DNA from: a virus
Length of the DNA: 40,320 nt
Virus record (IMG/VR): IMGVR_UViG_3300042355_001140
Coordinates: 1 to 40,320 of that record
Strand: one strand, 5' to 3'
Shown: positions 1 through 40,320 of the stretch, piece after piece
Layout of the letters: every line of letters begins with the position of its first letter
Position numbering within the stretch: position 1 is the stretch's first letter
Program-made: the position numbers and the translations under genes
Notes under the pieces: generated by a model
What the model was told of the DNA's origin: nothing
What the model saw: only the letters and a program-made list of their open reading frames with translations
The model's database searches: none

Positions 1-1047
1 ACGTGCGCTACTGCCGCTGGCCTGGGCAGACCGACGACGGCAAGAAGAACAACGATGCCAACCGCAACAAGCCGGCCTTCCCCTGGGACGGTGCCTCCGA
101 CACGCGCATCCCGCTGGCCGACGAGGTGATCAACGGCCTCGTCGACCTCTGTTCCACCTCTTTCTGGCGCTCGATGCTCCGCGTGTCGCCCACCAACATC
201 AGCCAGCTCGACCAGGCGGTCACCGCGCACAACCTGATGGACTGGACGGTCAACTCCCGGATGTACAACGACCTGACCCGTGAGGTCGAACTACTCTCGC
301 AGTACCTCTGGACCTACGGCTGGGCCGGCGTCCACGTCACCTGGCAGCAGGAGATGGGACAGAAGGAGCAGTACCTGACCATGGACCAGATCATGGCCTT
401 GGCAGCCCAGTCGCCCGAGGGCTCCATCCTGGCCGACCTGCCCAATCTCATCGCCAACCCCGAGGCCGACGACCAATCCGCAGAGCTCCTGCTCGCTGCC
501 TTCCCCAACCTGCGTAAGCGCCGGGCGCTCAAGGCCATCCGCGACCTGCGCACCGAGGGCGAGTGCGACTTCCCCATCCCCACCATGGTCAGCAACAAGC
601 CCATGGTCGCTGCCCTGGCACCCTACGACGAGTTGGTTTTCCCGCCCGAGACCACCGATATCCAGTCCGCCCGTGTTGTCTTCCGCCGCTACTACATGAC
701 CGAGGCCCAACTCCTGAACAAGGTCGAGACCGAGGACTGGGACGCCGAGTGGGCGCAGGAAGCCATCAACACGATGGGCCGTTTCTCCGATTACTCGGCT
801 TATACCTACGCAGCCGTCGGCCTTGCTGAAAACTCCATCCTCGACCGCGAAAACCTGATCGAAGTGGTCTACGCCTACCAAAAGTCTATCGACTCCGACG
901 GTATCCCGGGCGTGTTCTACACCGTCTTCAGCCCTCAGGTCGGCGACAAGTGGGGCTACTTCGACCTGTTGGACTACACGCACGGCCAGTATCCTTTCGT
1001 TATCTGGCGCTCCGAGCTCATCCACCGCCAGATCACCGAGAGCCGCG
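1..1047 (+). repeat. Near-identical duplicate of 39274-40320 (left copy)
   Basis: Base 1 aligns with base 39274 and the match runs without gaps to the end of the window. I count 37 substitutions in 1047 bases (96.5% identity). Every one is at a third codon position, or at the first position of a Leu codon, so the protein is unchanged. This is not an exact direct terminal repeat. It looks like an assembly that went round a circular or permuted genome and continued into a related variant. Confidence 0.95.
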
Positions 1048-1949
1048 GTGTGCCCGAGGTCTGTTCCACCTGGCAGCACGAGGTCAAGGCCCAGCGCGAC
1101 TCCATCTTCGACTACACGTCCCTCGCCACGCTCCCGCCCATCGAGGTCCCCAAAACCCGCGGCGGCAACCTCAAGATCGGCCCCGCCATCCAGATCCCTG
1201 TCCTTCGCCGCGGCGAGATCGGCTTCCTGGCGCCGCCCGCCCGCGAGCCCGGTGTGGCCTTCCAACTGATCGCGGCTATCGAGGCTCAGACCGACCGCTA
1301 CTTCGGCCGACCGACCGAGAAGGTCCCACCGGTCATCACCCAGATGCGCCAGCAGCGCCTGATCAACAACTGGCTGCACGGCTGGACCGAGGCCTTCCGC
1401 CAGGTCCTATCCCTCACGCTCCAGTACGTCGGCCCCGCCGAGATCCAACGTATCACAGCCTCTACCACCCCGCTGCCTCCCGACATTCAGGACTTCGACG
1501 TGATGCTCAAATTCGACATCCGCGAGCTGTCCACCGACCTCGTGACCGAGAAGCTCAAGGCCATCAGTACCCTCGTCCTGCCCCTCGACACCGCCGGCGT
1601 CATCGACCGTGCCAAGCTCATCAGTGTCGCCCTCCGGGCCATCGACCCCAACCTCGCCAGCGAGCTGGTCATGCAGCAGGGACCGGCCGCGCAGAAGATG
1701 TTCAACGAGACCAACGACGAGATTGCGCTCATGTCGCTCGGTAATCCTCCCCAACTCCGGGAGAACGACCCCACCGCACCCATGCGCCTGCAATTCAGCC
1801 AACAGGTCCTGCAATCCAACCCGAAATATCAGGCCCAGCTCCAGCAGGACTCGCTCTTTCAGGCCAACCTGCAGAAGTACATTGAGAACCTGCAGTTCAG
1901 CGTCCAACAGCAGCAGAACGCCATCACCGGCCGCCTTGGAGTCCAATGA
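1..1949 (+). CDS. Portal protein, C-terminal 649 codons (5' end cut by window edge)
   Basis: The portal forms the dodecameric ring at one capsid vertex through which DNA is packaged and ejected. The frame is open from base 1, and the GTG at base 3 is an internal Val codon, not the start. The same gene begins at 39135 with an ATG, and joining 39135-39273 to 1-1949 stays exactly in frame and gives 695 residues, a usual length for short-tailed phage portals. Position supports the call: it lies directly after TerL and before the scaffold-like and capsid genes. The stretch around the SRGVPE motif, followed by a Gln/Glu/Arg-rich helix and a Gln-rich C-terminus, also fits podovirus portals. The stop overlaps the next gene by ATGA. 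No enzymatic motif is expected. The family call rests on context plus general resemblance, not on an alignment. Confidence 0.85.
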   Translation, partial: VRYCRWPGQTDDGKKNNDANRNKPAFPWDGASDTRIPLADEVINGLVDLCSTSFWRSMLRVSPTNISQLDQAVTAHNLMDWTVNSRMYNDLTREVELLSQYLWTYGWAGVHVTWQQEMGQKEQYLTMDQIMALAAQSPEGSILADLPNLIANPEADDQSAELLLAAFPNLRKRRALKAIRDLRTEGECDFPIPTMVSNKPMVAALAPYDELVFPPETTDIQSARVVFRRYYMTEAQLLNKVETEDWDAEWAQEAINTMGRFSDYSAYTYAAVGLAENSILDRENLIEVVYAYQKSIDSDGIPGVFYTVFSPQVGDKWGYFDLLDYTHGQYPFVIWRSELIHRQITESRGVPEVCSTWQHEVKAQRDSIFDYTSLATLPPIEVPKTRGGNLKIGPAIQIPVLRRGEIGFLAPPAREPGVAFQLIAAIEAQTDRYFGRPTEKVPPVITQMRQQRLINNWLHGWTEAFRQVLSLTLQYVGPAEIQRITASTTPLPPDIQDFDVMLKFDIRELSTDLVTEKLKAISTLVLPLDTAGVIDRAKLISVALRAIDPNLASELVMQQGPAAQKMFNETNDEIALMSLGNPPQLRENDPTAPMRLQFSQQVLQSNPKYQAQLQQDSLFQANLQKYIENLQFSVQQQQNAITGRLGVQ

Positions 1950-2267: not shown

Positions 2268-3278
2268 ATGGACATCCCGACGAATACACAGGAAGCGAAA
2301 CCTGCCCAAAACACGGCACAGCCCCCAATCAACCCGATGCAGTTCGACGAATCGGCGTTGGCGAAGCTACTGAAGACACGATTCAGCGGGGAGGAAGAGA
2401 AGGCATCAGCCGTCGAGCGACAAGTGCCGGAGCCGGAAGCCACTTCCGTGGACGATCAGGCCGAGGATGCGGAGCCGACCGCAGAACAAACGGACGCCCA
2501 GGCCGAGTCGCCTGAGCAGGAGGTTCTTTCCGAGACCGAAGAGAACAGCGACGAGGAATCGCTGGGTTACCGCAAGCGGATCGACAAGCTCACGCGCCAG
2601 AAGAAAGAGGCGCTGGAGAAGGCCGAGGCGCTCGAGCGGGAGCTCAACGACGCCAAGACCAAGCTGGAGCAGACCAACGACAGGCCGACCGCGGTGCAGT
2701 CCGCTGCAGACCCGTTTGCCGATGTCTGGGAAGTGTCGAAGCTCAACGATGAGTGGAGCAAGGCCCGGAATCTGAAACGGTGGTGCGAGGACAACATCGA
2801 CGGCTGCGAGGTGGAGGGCAAGGAGTACAGCGCGGAAGACGTGAAGCAGATCAAGCGGCGTGTAGAAGACGCCATCGACCTGCACATACCAACCCGCGCC
2901 CGCTTCCTGCAGAACTACCAGCAGATCAAGCCCATCGCCGAGACGCTCTACCCATGGTGGAAGGACCGTTCAGCTACCGAGTACACCGAGGCGCAGGCCG
3001 TCCTGCGGCAACTGCCGCAGATTGCCTCACTGCCGGAGTACCAGGTGCTGGTCGGTGACTTCATTGCCGGGCGCAAGCTGCGCCTGGAGAAGGAGTCCGC
3101 CAAGGGCAAGCCATCTGCCACCCGCCCACTGGCCAAGGCACCCAGTCAGCCCGGTCGACCCACCGCAATCCCTGCAAAGAAGGATGCGGCCAAGGTCGGC
3201 CTGGACAACGCCAAGTCGCAGTTCCGAAAGTCCGGGACAACCACCGAATTAGCCCAAGTACTCAAAAGGATGCTCTAA
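2268..3278 (+). CDS. Scaffold-like head assembly protein, 336 aa
   Basis: Probable internal scaffolding protein that directs procapsid assembly and then leaves or is degraded. Evidence is position (directly upstream of the major capsid gene, 3 bases apart) and composition. The first about 95 residues are acidic and low in complexity (Glu, Asp, Ala, Gln). Residues about 100-135 look like a charged coiled coil rich in Lys and Glu, a central helical region follows, and the tail is basic with Pro and Lys. This acidic/coiled-coil/basic layout is typical of scaffolds of short-tailed phages. No protease motif is visible, so a fused maturation protease is unlikely. The ATG at 2268 is the first in frame and follows the 79-base gap. 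Confidence 0.75.
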   Translation: MDIPTNTQEAKPAQNTAQPPINPMQFDESALAKLLKTRFSGEEEKASAVERQVPEPEATSVDDQAEDAEPTAEQTDAQAESPEQEVLSETEENSDEESLGYRKRIDKLTRQKKEALEKAEALERELNDAKTKLEQTNDRPTAVQSAADPFADVWEVSKLNDEWSKARNLKRWCEDNIDGCEVEGKEYSAEDVKQIKRRVEDAIDLHIPTRARFLQNYQQIKPIAETLYPWWKDRSATEYTEAQAVLRQLPQIASLPEYQVLVGDFIAGRKLRLEKESAKGKPSATRPLAKAPSQPGRPTAIPAKKDAAKVGLDNAKSQFRKSGTTTELAQVLKRML

Positions 3279-3281
3279 ACC

Positions 3282-4349
3282 ATGCCCCTACTTCAGCCCA
3301 ACCAGGGCGGCTCTGTGCCGCTCGCTTCCACCTCGTCCGCTCGTGAAGATCTGGCGGACTACATCGCCATCGTCGACGCCAAGTCGACCCCGTTCGTGTC
3401 CATGGCCCCCAAGGGCCGTGACATCGGCAATATGCAGTTCAGTTGGCAGGTCGACAATTACGGCGCTCCCGTGCTTGCCGGCGTTGTCGACGGCACTGAT
3501 GTGACCGTTGCCAGTGCCTCCAACCCGGTGGTCAACCGGACCCGCTTGAACAACTACGGCCAGGCCTTCCGCCGCGACCTGCGCATCGGTTTCATTGCCG
3601 AGACTCAGGACGTCGCTGGTGTGACCGATGAATTGGCTAACGGCATAGCTAAAAAATTGGTTGAAATTAAACGCGATATGGAAAGTACATTTATGTGTAC
3701 TAACCAAGCCGCCCAGGCTGACAACGGCACCAACCCGTACCTGACCGGCTCGCTCGGTAACTGGTTGAACAGCACCAACGCCTCCAACATCGGCGCTTGC
3801 GCTTCTGGATCGGTGTTCCTGCCTGCCTCCGGCGCTGTCGACACCACGGCCTCCGCTTCGTTCACCGAGGCGACTGCCCAGAACGTGCTGACCGCTATCT
3901 ACAGCGCCACCGGCACCTTCCGGGACTACGATTGCATCTTGGGCACCACGCTCAAGCGTGCGTTCACCAACCTCACTGCTGGTGGCGGTGCTGTTATCAA
4001 CGGCGCTGGAACCACTAACACCTACACGCAGACCGCTGTCCGCACCTTCAACCAGGACCTGGCTTCCGACACCTTCAAGTCTTCCATCGATATTTTCGAG
4101 GGCGACTTCGGTCGCTTGATCCTGCACCCCACCACCTTCATCGGTGGCAAGAACAGCACTGCCCTGTCCGCCCAGGCCTTCAAGGGCTACGTGATCCCGA
4201 TGGACATGGTCGAGGTTCGCTACGCCAAGCTGCCGCAGGTCAAGGATCTGCCCGACGCCGGCGGCGGCCCTGCCCGCCTCGTCGAGGCCATTGCCGGTCT
4301 CGTGGTGAAGAACCCGAGCGGGTTTGGCTTCTTCAACGGCGCGAGCTAG
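3282..4349 (+). CDS. Major capsid protein, HK97-fold, DUF5309/SU10-like family, 355 aa
   Basis: Main shell subunit. The N-terminal third (residues about 15-110, an acidic Arg-Glu-Asp-Leu stretch, then STPF, a Trp-containing beta segment, and a section where NNYGQ precedes two Arg-rich strands) matches my knowledge of the DUF5309 family of HK97-fold capsid proteins found in SU10-like and related podoviruses. A long helix (about 110-135) with Glu and Lys at regular spacing follows, again as in that family. Position after the scaffold and before a strong terminator-like hairpin fits the most highly expressed phage gene. The leader reads TAAACC then ATG. An odd feature is that codons from about 3631 to 3705 are AT-rich (AAA, TTG, ATT, AGT, ACA), unlike the strongly C-ending codons on either side. 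Confidence 0.9.
   Translation: MPLLQPNQGGSVPLASTSSAREDLADYIAIVDAKSTPFVSMAPKGRDIGNMQFSWQVDNYGAPVLAGVVDGTDVTVASASNPVVNRTRLNNYGQAFRRDLRIGFIAETQDVAGVTDELANGIAKKLVEIKRDMESTFMCTNQAAQADNGTNPYLTGSLGNWLNSTNASNIGACASGSVFLPASGAVDTTASASFTEATAQNVLTAIYSATGTFRDYDCILGTTLKRAFTNLTAGGGAVINGAGTTNTYTQTAVRTFNQDLASDTFKSSIDIFEGDFGRLILHPTTFIGGKNSTALSAQAFKGYVIPMDMVEVRYAKLPQVKDLPDAGGGPARLVEAIAGLVVKNPSGFGFFNGAS
3631..3705 (+). other. AT-rich, atypical-codon patch inside the capsid gene
   Basis: About 75 bases with mainly A/T-ending codons inside a gene that otherwise favours C and G in third positions. The reading frame and the predicted long helix continue through it. It could be a recombination tract, an internal promoter, or a translation-pausing segment; nothing in the sequence decides between these. 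Confidence 0.6.
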
Positions 4350-26233: not shown

Positions 26234-26412
26234 CCTACCGCAACCGCTCCAACCCGGCCATTGAGGTCGAGGTGCTGCATCACGAGGCCGAGCTCAGGTT
26301 GGCCGAGACCAAACGCCAGGCAATCGTCTATCGGCGCCTGTCGACAGGCACGATTCACATCAGACCGAAGGCCGAGTTCTTCCTGAAGTTCGCTGCGCTC
26401 GCAGAAAAGTGA
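26230..26412 (+). CDS. Hypothetical small basic protein, 60 aa
   Basis: Unrecognised. The ATG overlaps the upstream stop (ATGA). It is rich in Arg, Glu, Ala and Leu and predicted to be helical in residues about 12-32, with a beta-like GTIHIRPK segment and a final Leu/Phe/Ala helix. It is the last gene before the AT-richer intergenic region at 26413, so it probably ends the structural transcription unit. Short length keeps confidence modest. Confidence 0.55.
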   Translation: MTYRNRSNPAIEVEVLHHEAELRLAETKRQAIVYRRLSTGTIHIRPKAEFFLKFAALAEK

Positions 26413-26543
26413 CCACTGTTTGACCCGCGTAAACATTGGGTTTTCTTTGAAATCTACAGAAAAAGCTAAAAGTCTGTAGACAGTGAATGAGGCTCATGGC
26501 AACTTGACGGCCGTCGGTCCAATCAAGTCGAAAGCAAAACACC
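26413..26543 (+). promoter_or_regulatory. Regulatory gap opening the second transcription block
   Basis: This 131-base gap is AT-richer than the flanks. It contains a perfect 8-base inverted repeat, TCTACAGA (26453-26460) and TCTGTAGA (26473-26480), around a 12-base A-rich centre, which may be an operator or RNA hairpin. A 10-base palindrome, GACGGCCGTC, lies at 26506-26515. TTTGAC (26419-26424) followed about 19 bases later by TTTCTTTG resembles loosely the TTTG/TAnnTTTG promoter layout of Bacteroidota, with one mismatch; no good sigma70 -10 box is present. The change from structural to non-structural genes here supports a promoter, but its exact site is uncertain. Confidence 0.5.
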
Positions 26544-28098: not shown

Positions 28099-28328
28099 GT
28101 AACCAACCAATCAACGACGGAGGACCGGCGTTTCCACATACAACGCAATGGGACGGAATTACTCCAGCAATCAATTACCATGGTATTTCAATGCGCGACT
28201 ACTTCGCTGCTGCGGCGTTGCAGGGGAACATAGCTCACACTAAAATAACTGGAACTCGTAATGATATCGCAATGGATGCGTACAAGTACGCCGACGCAAT
28301 GCTCAAAGCGAGAGAGGGCGTCAAGTGA
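28095..28328 (+). CDS. Conserved small phage protein of the GGPAFP/MRDYFAA type, 77 aa
   Basis: The motifs NDGGPAFP near the start, GISMRDYFAAAALQGN in the middle and KYADAMLKAR at the end follow a pattern I know from many small proteins in tailed phages, always of unknown function. The compact size and conserved Asp, Tyr and Ala suggest a helical protein that may bind a host or replication factor, but there is no evidence for a specific role. It overlaps both neighbours by ATGA. Codons are relatively A/T-ending for this genome. Confidence 0.7.
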   Translation: MSNQPINDGGPAFPHTTQWDGITPAINYHGISMRDYFAAAALQGNIAHTKITGTRNDIAMDAYKYADAMLKAREGVK

Positions 28329-28537
28329 ACGATCATATTCCTGACCTCACGAAAATGATCAGCGACACCCCAATATCAGACTCGACTCCTCACAACGTAG
28401 CCGATCTTGGTATGCTGTGCAGGAGGCTGGAGCGACTCGCAGCGGTGCGATTGGATTACATCACTCAACTTGAAGCCGAGAACGACGCTCTCCGTGCCGA
28501 CTTGTTGCCGTGGGACGAGAAGGAGGTGAAGCCGTGA
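28325..28537 (+). CDS. Small coiled-coil protein with TPxSD motif, 70 aa
   Basis: The N-terminal stretch KMISDTPISDS resembles the TPRTD signature of a loose class of small phage proteins, followed by a Leu/Arg/Glu-rich coiled coil (residues about 25-62). The next gene has a closely similar 5' end at both DNA and protein level, so the two are probably a duplicated pair. The start overlaps the previous stop by ATGA; Met11, inside the repeated segment, is a possible alternative start. Function unknown. Confidence 0.6.
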   Translation: MNDHIPDLTKMISDTPISDSTPHNVADLGMLCRRLERLAAVRLDYITQLEAENDALRADLLPWDEKEVKP

Positions 28538-28572
28538 GCCATCATCTTCGTGACGCCACGAAAATGATCAGC
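28332..28572 (+). repeat. Direct repeat at the 5' ends of two adjacent genes
   Basis: Bases 28332-28363 and 28541-28572 match over 32 bases with four or so mismatches; the last 15 (ACGAAAATGATCAGC) are identical. Each copy lies in the same position relative to its gene start and in the same frame. This indicates a local duplication of a gene beginning, or a shared regulatory or recombination site. Confidence 0.8.
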
Positions 28573-28749
28573 AAAACACCGCGCACAGACCGACAGCCGG
28601 TTGTCACCGTGGCGTTCCAGCAGTTCGTGAAGGCTGGCTTCGCCCGTCAGCTAGAGAGGCAACTGGTTGGTGCGAACAGTCGGATCAAGGAACTGGAACT
28701 CAAAGAGGACGAACTGAACGACCTCAAGAAATGGTTGGAGGGACGATGA
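28534..28749 (+). CDS. Small coiled-coil protein, paralogue of upstream gene, 71 aa
   Basis: The GTG at 28534 overlaps the previous stop (GTGA), preferred over a start at 28510 inside that gene. It carries KMISKTPRTDR, then a Phe/Ala/Arg segment (FARQLERQL) and a Glu/Leu/Lys coiled coil (residues about 45-70). The N-terminal 20 residues are clearly similar to those of the upstream protein, as are the underlying bases. Such TPRTD-type proteins with FARQLER helices are widespread small phage ORFans. Function unknown. Confidence 0.6.
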   Translation: MSHHLRDATKMISKTPRTDRQPVVTVAFQQFVKAGFARQLERQLVGANSRIKELELKEDELNDLKKWLEGR

Positions 28750-29774: not shown

Positions 29775-30557
29775 ATGATAATCAGTGCAACAGGCGGTAA
29801 GAAGGACTTCGCGCCGTGCCCCGAGTTCTCGGGCCGGGCGGTGTGCGTGGACGTGACTCCATTGAAGGAGTACGAGACGCAGTACGGTGTGAAGCAGAAA
29901 TTCAAGTTCGTGTTCGAGATCGACCTGCAGGACGACTCACGCGATCCGGTGCAGCCTTGGGTGGTAATGACAAAGCCGATGGTCCCGAGCCTGCACGAGA
30001 AGGCAGCACTCACCAAGTTCCTCAAGGACTGGTTCGGCCGGAAGTTGAGCGACCAGGAGAACAAGAGTCTGGATCTGGAGAGCCTTCTCGGGCGCCCGGC
30101 CAGCATTGTCATCGGGCACGAGCAGAGCGAGGACGGAAGCAAGACTTACGCGAACATCAAGCTGATCATGGCCCATAAGAGCGGCGAGGCATTGGCACCC
30201 AGCGGTCTGTGGGTGCGGCTGCAGGACCGTCCTGCGAAGGATGGGGCCGAGGGCAAGGCAGCGCCGGCTACGGGGGACTCGAGCTTCCGCAAGACCACCG
30301 GCGGCGGACAACCTCCGGCGGACGATGCGTCAAAGGTCAAGGTGCACGTCGGAAAGCACAAGGGCATCGAGCTCCGAGAGCTAACCGAGGAGAGCATCAC
30401 GAGCCTGATTGAGCACTGGCTGCCCAAGGCCCGGGCCGAGGTCAAGCAGACCGCTGACGACAAGCGCTTGATCAATGCGCTGGTTTGGTATCAGGCCAAG
30501 TTCAAGGCCGACGAGGAAGCCCAGATTAAGCAGGAAGAGGATGACCTCAACTACTGA
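29775..30557 (+). CDS. ssDNA-binding-like OB-fold protein with C-terminal GKHKG domain, 260 aa
   Basis: Residues about 1-130 follow a pattern I associate with phage single-strand DNA-binding or recombination-accessory proteins: CPEFSGRAVCVDVTPLKEYETQYG, a beta strand with FKFVFEID, then PSLHEKAALTKFLKDW and a following YANIKLIM strand. This would coat ssDNA during replication. The middle (about 150-190) is a Pro/Gly/Ala-rich linker. Residues about 190-255 hold VHVGKHKGIELRELTEE and a WLPKAR helix, resembling the small DUF3820-like domain seen in exonuclease-associated proteins, then an acidic tail of the kind SSBs use to bind partners. Its place at the head of the replication block supports the role. 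Confidence 0.65.
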   Translation: MIISATGGKKDFAPCPEFSGRAVCVDVTPLKEYETQYGVKQKFKFVFEIDLQDDSRDPVQPWVVMTKPMVPSLHEKAALTKFLKDWFGRKLSDQENKSLDLESLLGRPASIVIGHEQSEDGSKTYANIKLIMAHKSGEALAPSGLWVRLQDRPAKDGAEGKAAPATGDSSFRKTTGGGQPPADDASKVKVHVGKHKGIELRELTEESITSLIEHWLPKARAEVKQTADDKRLINALVWYQAKFKADEEAQIKQEEDDLNY

Positions 30558-30963
30558 GTCTATGACTGCTCCCAAGAAGAAGTACTCCAAGATCGCGCAC
30601 CTCATCCCCGACGTGATGCAGATGAGGGCCGAGGGCCAGTCAATCACCCGCATCGGTGCGGTGCTCGGATTGAGCAAGCAGCGGGTCAGCCAGATATCCA
30701 TGGTGGCCAAGGCCAAGGAAGCCATTCAGGCGCAGTGGGGATGGCCGTTCAGCACGCGCACATTCAATGTCCTCAACCGGATGGCGGTGAAGAACAAGGA
30801 CGAGGCCCTTAGCCTTTACGCATCGGGGCACCTGCACCCGCATTCGGTGACCGGATTCGGATGGAAGTCCTACTCCGAGATCTGCGAATGGCTGGGCGTT
30901 CCGGTGCTGATCAAGCAGCCAAAGGCGCCCAAGCTGTGCCCGCACTGCGGGAAGATAGTCTAA
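30541..30963 (+). CDS. Sigma4-like HTH fused to RNA polymerase alpha-CTD-like domain, 140 aa
   Basis: Residues 30-58 form an HTH with ITRIGAVLGLSKQRVSQI, close to the sigma70 region 4 pattern. Residues 68-120 match the RNA polymerase alpha C-terminal domain: STRTFNVL then GFGWKSYSEI. Compared with E. coli alpha, the UP-element contact residues R265, N268, G296, K298, S299 and E302 are matched by R73, N76, G107, K109, S110 and E113, and only C269 differs (Val). The end has Cys133-x2-Cys136 in a CPHCGK tail, half of a zinc ribbon. Likely a phage transcription factor that binds promoters and perhaps host polymerase. The start at 30541 overlaps the upstream gene by 17 bases and follows AGGAAGAGG; 30562 is an alternative. 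Confidence 0.75.
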   Translation: MTSTTESMTAPKKKYSKIAHLIPDVMQMRAEGQSITRIGAVLGLSKQRVSQISMVAKAKEAIQAQWGWPFSTRTFNVLNRMAVKNKDEALSLYASGHLHPHSVTGFGWKSYSEICEWLGVPVLIKQPKAPKLCPHCGKIV

Positions 30964-30969
30964 CACTTT

Positions 30970-30992
30970 CCTGGCAGCCTGTTGCTGCTAGG
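30970..30992 (+). promoter_or_regulatory. Stem-loop after the HTH/alpha-CTD-like gene
   Basis: CCTGGCAGC (30970-30978) can pair with GCTGCTAGG (30984-30992) through nine positions, one of them a G-U pair, around a 5-base loop. No T run follows. It begins 7 bases after the stop of the HTH/alpha-CTD-like gene in a 101-base gap that otherwise holds no gene, so it may be an RNA-processing or regulatory hairpin, or mark a minor promoter boundary. Confidence 0.45.
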
Positions 30993-31064
30993 GACTCATG
31001 GACAAGCGGGGGGTGCGCATCCGCTGACAAACGCACAACTACCAATCCAAACCGTTTTAGCATT

Positions 31065-31727
31065 ATGCCAGCAAATCCACGTATCTACTTTGACATCGAG
31101 ACAGGACCGCTCCCCATTGCGGAGTTGGTCATCCCACCGTTTGACCCGAGCCAGGTCAAGTTGGGCAACATCAAGAACCCGGACATCATCGCGGAGAAAA
31201 TCCAGCGGGCCGAGGAGAACCACGTCAGCGACTACATCAAGCACGCAGCACTGGATGCCCTGAGCGGGCAGGTGCTGTGCATCGGCTACCGAGTCGAGCA
31301 TGAGCAGCCCGCGGTGCTCTGCGCCGACGCGGATGGCGAGAAGGCCATGCTGCTGCAGTTCTGGTCGCTGCTAGACAGCTTCGAGCGCAAGCCGCAATTG
31401 ATCGGATTCAATGTGAAGCCGTTCGATTTACCGTTCCTGATCAAGAGGAGCTGGAAGCACCGGGTGACGGTGCCGTACTGGCTCAGGAATGGCAGGTACT
31501 GGAATGACCTGATCGTCGATTTGCGCGAGTCATGGCAGCTCGGTGACAACCGGGCGCACGGCAGTCTGGCTGCAATCTCGAGGCACCTCGGGCTGGGCGA
31601 CAAGGCCGGCAACGGCGCCATGTTCAGCGAGCTCTTCCAGACCGACCGCGAGGCAGCGATCAACTACTGCCTGCGCGACGTCCAGCTCACACAAGCGGTG
31701 GCAGACATCCTGATCCCTACCTACTGA
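31065..31727 (+). CDS. DEDDy-type 3'-5' exonuclease, PolB-exonuclease-like, 220 aa
   Basis: The ExoI motif is IYFDIETGPL (Asp10, Glu12), ExoII is LIGFNVKPFDLPFL (Asn/Asp), and ExoIII is INYCLRDVQLTQAVA, with Tyr four residues before Asp as in DEDDy enzymes. The insertion around residues 140-190 (basic and Trp-rich) is typical of the stand-alone relatives of the PolB proofreading domain. It removes 3' nucleotides and may proofread or process DNA ends during replication. I chose the ATG at 31065; longer in-frame readings from 30861 lie in the upstream gene. The PIF1-like helicase gene follows after 5 bases. No DNA polymerase gene is visible in the genome. Confidence 0.85.
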   Translation: MPANPRIYFDIETGPLPIAELVIPPFDPSQVKLGNIKNPDIIAEKIQRAEENHVSDYIKHAALDALSGQVLCIGYRVEHEQPAVLCADADGEKAMLLQFWSLLDSFERKPQLIGFNVKPFDLPFLIKRSWKHRVTVPYWLRNGRYWNDLIVDLRESWQLGDNRAHGSLAAISRHLGLGDKAGNGAMFSELFQTDREAAINYCLRDVQLTQAVADILIPTY

Positions 31728-31732
31728 CGCCA

Positions 31733-33001
31733 ATGATTGCCAGCCCGTCTGTCCATGTGATCGGGAACGACTTCGATCCGACGCCCGAGGACCGTTTCAT
31801 GGTCTGGGCAACATCGTTCGGGAACGTCTTCCTCACGGGGCAGGCGGGCACCGGCAAGAGCACGCTGCTGCGGGAGTTCCTGAGCAGGGTGGAAGGAGTT
31901 CGGGACGTGGCCATTACGGCCCCGACAGGTATCGCAGCGCTGAACGTGGGCGGGACCACCGTGCACAGGTGGTGCGGGATGCAGTTGGGGCCGCAGGATG
32001 GCGAGGACTTCCTGCAGGCTGCCGAGCGGCTGGAGGAGCAACCTTCGATCCATGGCGCCCGCAAGCGGGTGCGGGGCACCGAGGTGCTAGTGGTCGACGA
32101 GATCAGCATGATGGCCGGCCGGCACCTCGACTTCCTGAACTTCTGGGTGAAGCGGATCAGAGAAGACAGCAGGCCCTTCGGCGGGTTACAGGTTATCTTC
32201 CTGGGCGACTTCCTGCAATTGCCGCCGGTCAGGACCGACCAGAGCCAGCCCTACGACTGGGCGTTCCTGAGTCAGGCTTGGAGGGAGGCCGACTTCAAGA
32301 CGATCAAGCTCGAGAAGGTGCGGCGGCAGAATGACGTGCCTTTCATTGAGATGTTGAGCGGGTTCCGGGTGGGCAGGATGAAGCCGCGGGACAACCAACT
32401 GCTGCGCAGTGCGCTCAGGATGAACCCGCCTGAACATATTACCCGGCTGATGACGCACAACGTGCAGGTGGATAAGTGGAACAACTACCGGTTGAGCTCA
32501 ATCGATGGCCCGATTGCCGTGTTTGACGCCGAGGTCAAGGGTGTGGATCAGGCGGTGGAGTTCGCCACCAAGAACATGAGCACGCCGCGGGTGCTGCAGT
32601 TGAAGCCCGGGGCTGCCGTGATGTTTACCGCGAACGATGCGGAGCAGGGCTTCTACAATGGGCAGGTGGGCCGGGTGGTGGAGTTCCGAGGCAGCGACAT
32701 CGTGGTCGAGAGCCGCGGTGAGAAGATTTGCTTGGGCCGGCGCAAATGGTTCTTTGAGTCGCTGGGGGTGACCGTCCAACAATACCCGCTCCGATTGGCC
32801 TACGCGATGACCATTCATCGGGCGCAGGGGCTCACCCTGGATGCCGCGAGGATTGATATACGGGCGGCCCGGGAGCCCGGACAGGCCTACGTGGCACTGA
32901 GCCGGGTTCGGACGCTAGGCGGGATCTACCTGACGGAGTGGCCGAAGGGCTGGTTCATCAGCGAGGAGGCGTTGCGGTTTGAAAGGCGTGAAGAGGTATG
33001 A
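31733..33001 (+). CDS. PIF1-like SF1B DNA helicase, 422 aa
   Basis: The complete motif set of the PIF1/RecD-like branch is present: motif I GQAGTGKST (residues 36-44), motif Ia with APTGIAALN, motif II VVDEISMM (Asp122, Glu123), motif III with FLGDFLQLPPV, then a motif V/VI region MTIHRAQGLT and YVALSRVRTL near the C-terminus. These 5'-3' helicases unwind duplex DNA and clear structures such as G-quadruplexes. Length is near the minimal core. It starts 5 bases after the exonuclease stop and overlaps the primase-helicase start, so the three are co-expressed replication proteins. It is probably an auxiliary helicase, since the replicative one is the SF3 protein downstream. Confidence 0.9.
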   Translation: MIASPSVHVIGNDFDPTPEDRFMVWATSFGNVFLTGQAGTGKSTLLREFLSRVEGVRDVAITAPTGIAALNVGGTTVHRWCGMQLGPQDGEDFLQAAERLEEQPSIHGARKRVRGTEVLVVDEISMMAGRHLDFLNFWVKRIREDSRPFGGLQVIFLGDFLQLPPVRTDQSQPYDWAFLSQAWREADFKTIKLEKVRRQNDVPFIEMLSGFRVGRMKPRDNQLLRSALRMNPPEHITRLMTHNVQVDKWNNYRLSSIDGPIAVFDAEVKGVDQAVEFATKNMSTPRVLQLKPGAAVMFTANDAEQGFYNGQVGRVVEFRGSDIVVESRGEKICLGRRKWFFESLGVTVQQYPLRLAYAMTIHRAQGLTLDAARIDIRAAREPGQAYVALSRVRTLGGIYLTEWPKGWFISEEALRFERREEV

Positions 33002-34980
33002 TGACGACGCAAGAGATCGAGGGCTGGCTGGGCACGCCGCTGTTCCTGGTGCCGCAGAACCCGGGGACCAAGATTCCGATGGTCAAGTACACCCAAGAGA
33101 CCATGGAGAGTACCAAGAGGGATGTTTACCGCGTCATGCTCGAGCATGGGAACGTGGCTGTCAGGCTGGGGGAATGGAGCGGCGGGCTGTGTGCGATAGA
33201 CTTCGACGATGAGGGGAGTCTGGAGGAGTTTCTGAAGGTGAATCCGGTGCTGCAGGGCAGTGCCCGGTGGAAGGGCAAGCGGGGCGCTCAGGTCGGCGTC
33301 AGGATCACGGGGGCATACCCCAAGCCGTGCGCGGAGCGCAGCACGACCGAGATGGTGGAGGTCAATGGGCGCATGATGGGCAAGCCGCTGTACGAATGGC
33401 GCAGCACGGGGAACCTGAGCACGGTGAAGGGCGTGCACACCAGCGGGTGCGAGTATAGCGTGCTGGTGGACAGGCCGCCGGTGGCGCTGGAGTTCAGCCA
33501 GATCCGTTGGCCCGATGGATGGCCGGTGCCGGGCAGTAGGGATGAGATGGCGCAGTTGCTCCGGCTGCATGGCGTGCCCTGGACGTTCGGAAGGAGCGGC
33601 ACGGGCAATCTGCACCCAACCTTCTTTGCCGGGTACATGGCGCACAAGGAAAGGTTCCTCTTCGATGCGGTGAGCGGGATGCACTACTGGTACAAGGAGG
33701 ACCGGGGGATCTGGATGAGCATGAGCCGCGAGGAGATGGCGCAGAAGGCCCTGGAGACCGCCAGGCGCGTTCTGTTGGATCAGGTGGCCTCGACGGAAGA
33801 CCCGCGGCTGCCGGCGCTGCTGACGAGGCTCACAGCCAGCTTCGCGGATCAGGTTGTGGATCTCATCGGGAGGCTGCAGGTGGAGCGTAATCCGTTCTCC
33901 AGGCCGGACAGCGTGGTGCACTGCAGCAATGTCATGGTGGATCTCAGGAGCGTGCCCTACGCAATGCACGGGTTCGGCCCGGAGTGGATGTCAAGGAACC
34001 AGACGCCGGTGCGGTATGTGCAGGGGGCAAGCAGCGAGATGTGGCAGGCCTTCCTGGATCATGCGCTGCCCGAGGAGGATGACCAGATGCTGCTGCAGAG
34101 ATGGGGCGGCCTAGCGCTGCTGCAGCGGAATAGGCCGCAGGTGATTCTGCTGCTGACCGGAACCGGTGGCGGCGGGAAGAGCACGGTGGCCGGATTGGTC
34201 AGGCGGCTGGTCGGCGATGAGAACTGCAGCGAGCTGAGAACGAATCACTTGGGCAGCCGGTTTGAACTGGGCAACTTCCATGACCGGACGCTGTTGATCG
34301 GTAGCGATGTGCCGCCGGACTTCCTGTCCTGCGAGGAGAGCCAGTTCCTGAAGGCGCTGACCGGCGGCGACAGGCTGGCCGTCGAGTTCAAGGGGAAGTC
34401 CGGGGCCCAGGCCGTGGTCGGCGACTGGAACGTCATCGTGACGGCCAATAGCCGGCTGAAGGTCAACGTGCAGGGAGATTTGGGAGCGTGGTCGAGACGG
34501 CTGCTGCTGCTCGACTTCAGCCAGCCCAAGCCGGAGAAGGTGATCCCCAACTATCACGATGTGATGATTGAGCGGGAAGGCAGCGGGATATTGAACTGGT
34601 TCCTAGAGGGCGCGGAGGACTTGTGCCGGGTGATGCAGGCCGGCAGGCCGTTTCCGGTCAGCGACAGGCAGCGTGGTATGATAGACAACTTATTGAGCGA
34701 AAGTGATAGTGTGAGATACTTTATTGTGAACCATGTCCGTGCTAGTAGTATGTCATCGGATAGTATTACTAGCGAGGAGCTGTATGCTGCCTATATGGCC
34801 ATGTGCAGCAACAAGGAATGGGGGCCTGAACCGGACAAGCGCTTCCAGCGCCGGGCAGCGGAACTGATGCTGGAGATACACCAGGCCATCCCGTCGAACC
34901 ACATTCACCGCAGTGACGGTCAGCAACAACAGGCGCGAGGCTACATGAAAGTGGTCTTGACCTCGTCGGAAATGGCTTGA
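32998..34980 (+). CDS. Primase-helicase: PrimPol N-terminus plus SF3 (D5/P4-like) helicase, 660 aa
   Basis: The replication initiator. Residues about 50-130 hold a PrimPol-type core: VRLGEWSGGLCAIDFDD with Asp68 and Asp70 as metal ligands, then a Gly/Arg/Tyr region. Residues about 350-560 are the SF3 helicase: Walker A GTGGGGKST (388-396), a Walker B region with DRTLLIGSDVP, and sensor/Arg-finger-like segments (VTANSRL, RRLLLLDF). The C-terminal about 90 residues include a winged-helix-like D5_C region. The codons from about 34675 to 34790 are more A/T-ending than elsewhere. The start at 32998 (ATGATG; 33001 equally possible) overlaps the PIF1 stop. Confidence 0.85.
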   Translation: MMTTQEIEGWLGTPLFLVPQNPGTKIPMVKYTQETMESTKRDVYRVMLEHGNVAVRLGEWSGGLCAIDFDDEGSLEEFLKVNPVLQGSARWKGKRGAQVGVRITGAYPKPCAERSTTEMVEVNGRMMGKPLYEWRSTGNLSTVKGVHTSGCEYSVLVDRPPVALEFSQIRWPDGWPVPGSRDEMAQLLRLHGVPWTFGRSGTGNLHPTFFAGYMAHKERFLFDAVSGMHYWYKEDRGIWMSMSREEMAQKALETARRVLLDQVASTEDPRLPALLTRLTASFADQVVDLIGRLQVERNPFSRPDSVVHCSNVMVDLRSVPYAMHGFGPEWMSRNQTPVRYVQGASSEMWQAFLDHALPEEDDQMLLQRWGGLALLQRNRPQVILLLTGTGGGGKSTVAGLVRRLVGDENCSELRTNHLGSRFELGNFHDRTLLIGSDVPPDFLSCEESQFLKALTGGDRLAVEFKGKSGAQAVVGDWNVIVTANSRLKVNVQGDLGAWSRRLLLLDFSQPKPEKVIPNYHDVMIEREGSGILNWFLEGAEDLCRVMQAGRPFPVSDRQRGMIDNLLSESDSVRYFIVNHVRASSMSSDSITSEELYAAYMAMCSNKEWGPEPDKRFQRRAAELMLEIHQAIPSNHIHRSDGQQQQARGYMKVVLTSSEMA

Positions 34981-34982
34981 GC

Positions 34983-35129
34983 TGTCAAGCGTTGTCAAGC
35001 GTTTGGGACGGAGGACGGCACTTCTCAACTCGGTGCAAGATGAGTAAAGGTAGCAAAACTGTGTTCAAAGTAGAAACGAAGTTGGAAAATGCCGTCCCAT
35101 CCGTCCCAAACACTAGACAGTGCTTGACA
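34983..35129 (+). repeat. Large imperfect inverted repeat with TGTCAAGC repeats; replication-origin candidate
   Basis: The left arm has TGTCAAGC twice in direct repeat (34983-34990 and 34993-35000), then GTTTGGGACGGA (35001-35012) and GGACGGCA (35013-35020). The right arm, read in reverse, has TGTCAAGC (35122-35129), a 10-base spacer, the same GTTTGGGACGGA (35100-35111) and GGACGGCA (35090-35097), with a 2-base shift. Further, looser pairing leads to a centre of about 46 AT-rich bases containing the ATG at 35040. It sits directly after the primase-helicase gene. This could be an origin, an RNA hairpin hiding that start codon, or a small inserted element. Confidence 0.7.
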
Positions 35130-35372
35130 GCGGTAGGCCTGCGCAAAATTGGCTCGAAATTGGTCGGGCAATGCCCAGCCTGTGCCGAGGAAGGAGGGGA
35201 CAAACAACGCAACCATCTCGTCATCCAGGCAGACGGAAGGTTTGGTTGCGTTATCCACCCCGGCGCCAGCGGCAAGGCACATAGACAACGCATATTTCAG
35301 CTTATAGGAGATAAAAGCGGCAAGGGTAGGCAGCACTTGCCCGCAACACCATTAGACATATCACTGTTATGA
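35040..35372 (+). CDS. Primase-type zinc-binding domain protein, 110 aa
   Basis: Residues 45-73 contain a zinc-site pattern CPAC, then CVIH: Cys45-x2-Cys48 and Cys70-x2-His73, with VIQADGRFGC between, matching the zinc-binding N-terminal domain of DnaG-type primases (CHC2-like) and phage relatives. It would recognise priming sites or ssDNA, and here is a free-standing subunit next to the PrimPol-helicase. The first 25 residues are basic and lie within the inverted repeat. I chose the ATG at 35040; a TTG at 34977 overlapping the upstream stop would add 21 unlikely residues. Codons are A/T-richer than in the upstream helicases. Confidence 0.65.
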   Translation: MSKGSKTVFKVETKLENAVPSVPNTRQCLTAVGLRKIGSKLVGQCPACAEEGGDKQRNHLVIQADGRFGCVIHPGASGKAHRQRIFQLIGDKSGKGRQHLPATPLDISLL

Positions 35373-39134: not shown

Positions 39135-40320
39135 ATGCAAGGAGATTCCTACAAGCAAGCAACCGACGTGATGGCACGGGTCGGCGACGAGCCCAATGTA
39201 CCGGCATTGACCGAGGAGCTGCGGCGCTCGGCCACCGACTACGGCGTCTTCGCCCGGGTCGAGAATGCCGAGAACGTGCGCTACTGCCGCTGGCCTGGGC
39301 AGACCGACGACGGCAAGAAGAACAACGATGCCAACCGCAACAAGCCGGCCTTCCCCTGGGACGGTGCCTCCGACACGCGCATCCCGCTGGCCGACGAGGT
39401 TATCAACGGCCTCGTCGACCTCTGTTCCACGTCCTTCTGGCGCTCGATGCTCCGCGTGTCGCCCACCAACATCAGCCAGCTCGACCAGGCGGTCACCGCG
39501 CACAACCTGATGGACTGGACGGTCAACTCCCGGATGTACAACGACCTCACCCGCGAGGTTGAATTGCTCTCGCAGTACCTCTGGACCTACGGCTGGGCCG
39601 GCGTCCATGTCACATGGCAGCAGGAGATGGGTCAGAAGGAGCAGTACCTGACCATGGACCAGATCATGGCCTTGGCAGCCCAGTCGCCCGAGGGCTCCAT
39701 CCTGGCCGACCTGCCCAATCTCATCGCCAACCCAGAGGCCGACGACCAATCCGCAGAGCTCCTGCTCGCTGCCTTCCCCAATTTACGCAAGCGCCGAGCC
39801 CTCAAGGCCATCCGCGACCTGCGCACCGAGGGCGAGTGCGACTTCCCCATCCCCACCATGGTCAGCAACAAGCCCATGGTCGCTGCCCTAGCACCCTACG
39901 ACGAGCTGGTCTTCCCGCCCGAGACCACCGACATCCAGTCCGCCCGGGTTGTCTTCCGCCGCTACTACATGACCGAGGCCCAGCTTCTGAACAAGGTCGA
40001 GACCGAGGACTGGGACGCCGAGTGGGCACAAGAAGCCATCAACACGATGGGCCGTTTCTCGGACTACTCCGCCTACACCTACGCAGCCGTCGGCCTTGCC
40101 GAAAACTCCATCCTCGACCGCGAAAACCTGATCGAAGTGGTCTACGCCTACCAAAAGTCTATCGACTCCGACGGTATCCCGGGCGTGTTCTACACCGTCT
40201 TCAGCCCCCAGGTCGGCGACAAGTGGGGCTACTTCGACCTACTGGACTACACGCACGGCCAGTATCCATTCGTTATCTGGCGCTCCGAGCTCATCCACCG
40301 CCAGATCACCGAGAGCCGCG
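39135..40320 (+). CDS. Portal protein, N-terminal 395 codons (3' end cut by window edge)
   Basis: The true start of the portal gene, 11 bases after the TerL stop; the leader TAAACCATTTCACT lacks a Shine-Dalgarno sequence. The first 46 residues are acidic and polar, include DVMARVGDEPNVPAL, and are absent from the left copy. From 39274 the sequence repeats the left end of the window with only silent differences. The frame runs off the window. The full protein, read by joining to 1-1949, has 695 residues. The stretch from base 39274 onward belongs to a slightly different variant than the left copy, so the joined protein is the same but the DNA is not. Confidence 0.9.
   Translation, partial: MQGDSYKQATDVMARVGDEPNVPALTEELRRSATDYGVFARVENAENVRYCRWPGQTDDGKKNNDANRNKPAFPWDGASDTRIPLADEVINGLVDLCSTSFWRSMLRVSPTNISQLDQAVTAHNLMDWTVNSRMYNDLTREVELLSQYLWTYGWAGVHVTWQQEMGQKEQYLTMDQIMALAAQSPEGSILADLPNLIANPEADDQSAELLLAAFPNLRKRRALKAIRDLRTEGECDFPIPTMVSNKPMVAALAPYDELVFPPETTDIQSARVVFRRYYMTEAQLLNKVETEDWDAEWAQEAINTMGRFSDYSAYTYAAVGLAENSILDRENLIEVVYAYQKSIDSDGIPGVFYTVFSPQVGDKWGYFDLLDYTHGQYPFVIWRSELIHRQITESR
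39274..40320 (+). repeat. Near-identical duplicate of 1-1047 (right copy)
   Basis: This copy aligns without gaps to the left end of the window, at about 96.5% identity. Substitutions cluster in small groups (for example six between 509 and 527 and six between 788 and 827 in left-copy coordinates) rather than evenly. It gives the circular length estimate of 39,273 bases. Confidence 0.95.

Follow-up and report, generated by a model that had tools for sequence, protein, structure and literature searches.

Two parts of bacterial RNA polymerase read promoters upstream, the C-terminal domain of the alpha subunit (alpha-CTD) and region 4 of sigma, and both are usually acted on by phages from outside (AsiA, MotA, Ogr, Mor). 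A widespread family of phage proteins that unite the two folds in a single small chain, together with stand-alone alpha-CTD proteins in related phages, would show that phages also borrow polymerase parts, and such a protein offers a minimal two-domain system for testing how alpha-CTD reads DNA away from the polymerase.

Among cellular proteins, three from a sample of 59 Verrucomicrobiota genomes combine these two domains in a single chain, each scoring above its Pfam cut-off: two with alpha-CTD and sigma-4 domains (L143, 1002-2123; L144, 1011-2057), and one complete sigma-70 factor whose C-terminus is an alpha-CTD (L145, 234-1457). They are 350-407 aa long, contain further sequence and have no CxxC tail, and in L143 and L144 alpha-CTD precedes sigma-4, unlike the phage order of helix-turn-helix (HTH) then alpha-CTD. 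The BREX kinase PglW, in which an alpha-CTD-like domain is followed by wHTH modules, likewise reuses the alpha-CTD fold beside HTH modules in a non-polymerase protein, but is a large kinase of a defence system (PMC12839542). Phage T4 gp33 and the minimal sigma-like HTH factors of jumbo phages are small proteins with an HTH related to sigma region 4, but no alpha-CTD domain has been described in them (PMC7824862). Four BFVD entries from uncultured Caudovirales (A0A6J7WD60, A0A6J5NZM6, A0A6J5L490, A0A6J5M7I6; 111-135 aa) structurally match the second domain of the protein described here and are named 'RNA polymerase, alpha subunit, C-terminal'; we liken them by that name and the structural match only. 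Aeromonas phage sigma factors (L286, L287) were considered as carriers of an alpha-CTD tail, and no such domain was found in them. The literature searched yielded no alpha-CTD-bearing phage factor; Aravind and Iyer 2012, the source likeliest to treat bacterial alpha-CTD/sigma-4/HARE-HTH fusions, lies outside it. Given L143-L145, the BFVD proteins and PglW, the pairing of alpha-CTD with sigma-4 is not unique, and a preliminary description of the locus, which knew of no described factor of this make-up, was right only in part; what was not found described in the literature searched is the compact phage variant, HTH followed by alpha-CTD and a CxxC tail.

The window analysed is a 40,320-nt stretch, positions 1 to 40,320 of IMG/VR virus record IMGVR_UViG_3300042355_001140, in which an ORF of 140 codons on the + strand (30541-30963) encodes this protein, as supported by the family alignment A7. 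Its start codon is ambiguous: ATG at 30541, preceded by AGGA at 30532-30535, would give 140 aa and ATG at 30562 would give 133, and in many relatives (e.g. L024) an in-frame stop immediately precedes the Met equivalent to residue 8, so that the length is given as 133 or 140 aa. The ORF is a real gene, as its spread through a family and an excess of synonymous over non-synonymous codon changes (34 v 10, relative to L009) indicate. A protein-pattern search found homologues in about 70 IMG/VR contigs, and others reached via DNA features of the same phages bring the family to at least 84 distinct sequences; residue counts below refer to these 84 members, or to the 85 rows of their alignment. The window protein has no match in the named-phage collection, and L193, a divergent member, gave only HTH-level chance matches to named phages. 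The sole genome match is a 91% copy on one 4-kb contig of a Verrucomicrobiota MAG, and a Verrucomicrobiota host is not concluded from this single, possibly mis-binned contig. Neither the N-terminal assembly domain of alpha nor its linker is present in the 133-140 aa chain, nor is any sigma region other than the one resembling region 4.

The first domain (residues 19-66; 30595-30738, +) is a three-helix HTH resembling sigma-70 region 4, on the evidence of an AF2 model, Sigma70_r4 (PF04545) and comparison of family profiles with PDB sequences. Helices in the model span residues 19-30, 35-42 and 46-66 and correspond to helices 2-4 of sigma region 4. Residues 1-16 have low pLDDT, and no counterpart is predicted for the first region-4 helix, which contributes to the surface that binds the beta flap; it appears to be missing. 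The window protein itself scores 18.5 bits with Sigma70_r4, under the cut-off of 24.1, and scores better with HTH_23, also sub-threshold. Three divergent members reached through a scan for a palindrome described below exceed the Sigma70_r4 cut-off (L151, L193 and L201, with 33.0, 28.4 and 26.4 bits) and one, L210, falls under it; divergent members of the family share with sigma region 4 the pattern TLEEIG-x3-NLSRQRI-x-QIE. With the A7 profile, sigma region 4 chains rank first among natural proteins in the PDB, and in Verrucomicrobiota genomes most of the strongest matches are C-termini of apparent sigma-70 factors, one of them Pfam-checked, with a resolvase-type protein and plain HTH proteins among the others. 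At the level of the family, the HTH is thus sigma-region-4-like. The residues that read the -35 element in sigma (R584, E585, R588, Q589) are represented in the 84 members by K or R, an invariant Q, a variable position (S/N/H/K) and Q, respectively; with E585 replaced by an invariant Gln and R588 by a variable residue, recognition of a TTGACA-type -35 element would not be expected.

The second domain (residues 67-121; 30739-30903, +) resembles alpha-CTD (PF03118) by VIA-align, Foldseek and hhalign. Predicted alone (model A5, pLDDT 83), it returned RNA polymerase alpha-CTDs exclusively in VIA-align rows 1-32 (Z 3.8-6.4 over 49-59 residues, up to 34% identity); a Z below 8 is not decisive alone, and the weight of this result lies in the uniformity of the match list, whose first unrelated entry, DNA polymerase kappa, has Z 2.3. 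The top 7 Foldseek matches are likewise all alpha subunits, with weak E-values above 0.1. Compared with cellular alpha-CTDs in hhalign, the domain scored 25.1, where none of 300 column shuffles exceeded 18.8; the deeper alignment A7 raised the score to 32.3 (probability 86%), while 200 shuffles reached 18.1 at most; the family profile also matched the H. pylori alpha-CTD among PDB sequences, in the region of this domain, at E 0.024. PF03118 gives the window protein 11.7 bits, under its cut-off of 23.8, and matches 9 of 19 close relatives (best E 0.017). No other helix-hairpin-helix Pfam family appears among the matches of these 19 members, and, the next structural row reaching only Z 2.3, assignment to another such family was rejected. 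Related phages also encode small proteins consisting of an alpha-CTD-like domain alone: one (2985-3440, -) lies close to the palindrome in a related contig, L222, and passes PF03118 at 25.4 v 23.8 bits, and another lies at 1025-1360 (+) in L199 and occurs also in L004 and L005. Together these comparisons point to an alpha-CTD-type fold at the family level. The ORF, HTH, six contact residues and Cys-x2-Cys tail (CPHC) named in the preliminary description are all present, and its two domain assignments stand for the family, although the window protein itself remains under the cut-offs of PF04545 and PF03118.

The hhalign register agrees with the alignment of UP-element contacts proposed earlier, pairing R73, N76, G107, K109, S110 and E113 of the window protein with R265, N268, G296, K298, S299 and E302 of alpha. 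Conservation of these six, which belong to the 265 determinant of alpha, is uneven: R73, G107 and E113 are invariant in the 84 members and the S299 equivalent nearly so (82/85), but the equivalents of N268 (61/85) and K298 (only 50/85) vary. The domain shares with alpha-CTD the fold, the R265, G296, S299 and E302 positions and the helix-hairpin-helix loop; it differs in a longer loop (GHLHP) before the hairpin and in a W-G-x-P motif that, in practically all members, puts W, G and P at the positions of alpha D258, D259 and E261. In alpha these three residues, the 261 determinant, contact sigma region 4. The pattern therefore indicates that the DNA-gripping face has mostly been retained and the sigma-contact face has not.

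These features bear on two ways in which the protein might engage the host transcription machinery. One, raised in the preliminary description, is that it replaces or mimics both polymerase contacts, its sigma-4-like HTH lying at or near the -35 element and its alpha-CTD-like domain serving as a detachable UP-element reader, and so steers host RNA polymerase to phage promoters. If true, a 15-kDa factor would replace two polymerase-promoter contacts at once and would count among several modules derived from alpha-CTD, HTH-fused or stand-alone, spread through the early genes of the group. Such mimicry is unproven, since the sigma-contact residues are replaced by W-G-x-P and the first helix of sigma-4 is apparently absent; E585 and R588 are not kept either, and we consider this reading improbable. 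The other is that the protein vies with the alpha-CTD of the host for UP elements or activators and so lowers host transcription. The alpha-CTD fold with its key minor-groove residues, and the alpha-CTD-only small proteins of related phages (L222, L199), would suit such a host-takeover factor, but the HTH points to a specific target sequence and not to a general decoy, and the 261 determinant is gone; we regard this role as less probable still.

Both cysteines of a C-terminal CPHCGK motif (CxxC; 30937-30954, +) are invariant in the 84 members. A zinc ribbon, which takes two CxxC pairs in one chain, is excluded because the single C-terminal pair present cannot form one. The Rad50 hook is a metal-bridged dimer (PMC5093744), and by likeness to it the tail is a possible metal-bridged dimer contact.

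We favour, at no better than even confidence, a small accessory DNA-binding phage regulator, most likely of transcription. A probable role in phage gene regulation follows from the joining of two DNA-binding modules that bacteria use in transcription start; against it, the window protein lies under both Pfam thresholds and the N268 and K298 equivalents vary. In such a regulator the three-helix HTH, whether it descends from the DNA-reading half of sigma region 4 or has converged on it, would read a specific site, and the alpha-CTD-like domain would put its helix-hairpin-helix, with the R265 equivalent and the G296/S299 loop, into the minor groove next to that site, in the manner of alpha at UP elements. 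A metal between their CxxC tails would probably join two copies, and the protein, bound to promoter-proximal DNA, would activate or shut down promoters of the phage (or host), with or without a contact to RNA polymerase.

The surroundings of the gene are those of replication and recombination, not transcription. Directly upstream is a conserved 260-aa gene (29775-30557, +) that also precedes the family gene in relatives and has no significant Pfam or PHROGs match. Downstream follow a DNA_pol_B_exo2-type 3'-5' exonuclease gene (31065-31727, +; PF10108, E 1e-12) and, in the same replication module, genes for a PIF1/Dda-like helicase (31733-33001, +) and a primase/D5-type helicase (32998-34980, +); the module also includes a Holliday-junction resolvase. 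We anchored relatives on a conserved RNA in the exonuclease leader, taking loci with at least 700 bases upstream of it (n=113): the family gene is present in 110 and sits between the 260-aa and exonuclease genes in 105. The main rival to a transcription regulator takes its cue from this position beside resolvase, helicase and primase, namely that the protein is an accessory DNA binder of replication or recombination, acting at an origin or junction as a partner of the exonuclease, helicase and primase, with its folds serving as DNA grips only. In two related modules (L194, L258), however, the 260-aa gene is followed directly by the exonuclease gene, with no family copy elsewhere in these possibly partial records, and the best matches of both domains are transcription proteins; a replication role is possible but rather doubtful. 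The modules of L194 and L258 also make the family gene accessory.

The leader RNA on which these loci were anchored forms a hairpin followed by an H-type pseudoknot (window 30973-31036) and begins no more than about 10 nt from where the family gene stops, upstream of the exonuclease gene at 31065. The hairpin pairs 30973-30978 with 30984-30989, and the pseudoknot stems pair 31006-31009 with 31021-31024 and 31013-31017 with 31032-31036. Across 16 sequences, the very ones from which the structure was drawn, 97.9% of cells are paired, with six doubly changed pairs, compared with at most 52.6% in slid controls. Folding of the single sequence is unremarkable (z -0.98) because the program cannot form a pseudoknot, and the support lies in covariation. 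The core occurs in at least 120 viral stretches and has no Rfam match at the gathering threshold; by analogy with the T4 gene 32 leader, it is possibly a translational control element. That this strongly conserved RNA lies so close to the stop codon, with the family gene at nearly all anchored loci, would fit a protein that binds and regulates it, but L194 and L258 keep the pseudoknot without the gene, L290 has the RNA in an unrelated gene context, and neither domain is typical for RNA binding. Regulation through the leader RNA is accordingly very unlikely, and we retain the DNA-binding regulator as the preferred reading.

A block of about 70 bases (26410-26481), conserved in relatives, heads the early/replication module and contains an invariant palindrome, TCTACAG-N14-CTGTAGA (26453-26480), and an A/T-rich spacer; over 100 viral stretches carry it. 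The preliminary description had suggested the AT-rich gap at 26413-26543 as a binding target; a conserved palindrome does lie within it, and 24 of the 26 site-bearing contigs having 5.5 kb or more downstream also carry the family gene. As an operator of the protein the palindrome was nevertheless not accepted: site and gene share one phage lineage, L194 and L258 keep the palindrome without the gene, and the site is constant, yet position 50 in the recognition helix varies.

Three further features of the window were observed. Between the primase gene and the next gene, an imperfect 32-nt inverted repeat (34981-35131), conserved in relatives, is a possible origin or regulatory site. Positions 1-1047 recur at 39274-40320 with 37 mismatches in 1047 bases, an imperfect overlap: either strain variants of a circular (or circularly permuted) genome were assembled together, or the two ends are a repeat that has diverged. 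Finally, two adjacent small ORFs open with an 81% identical 47-nt stretch (28325-28371 and 28534-28580), likely a tandem duplication.
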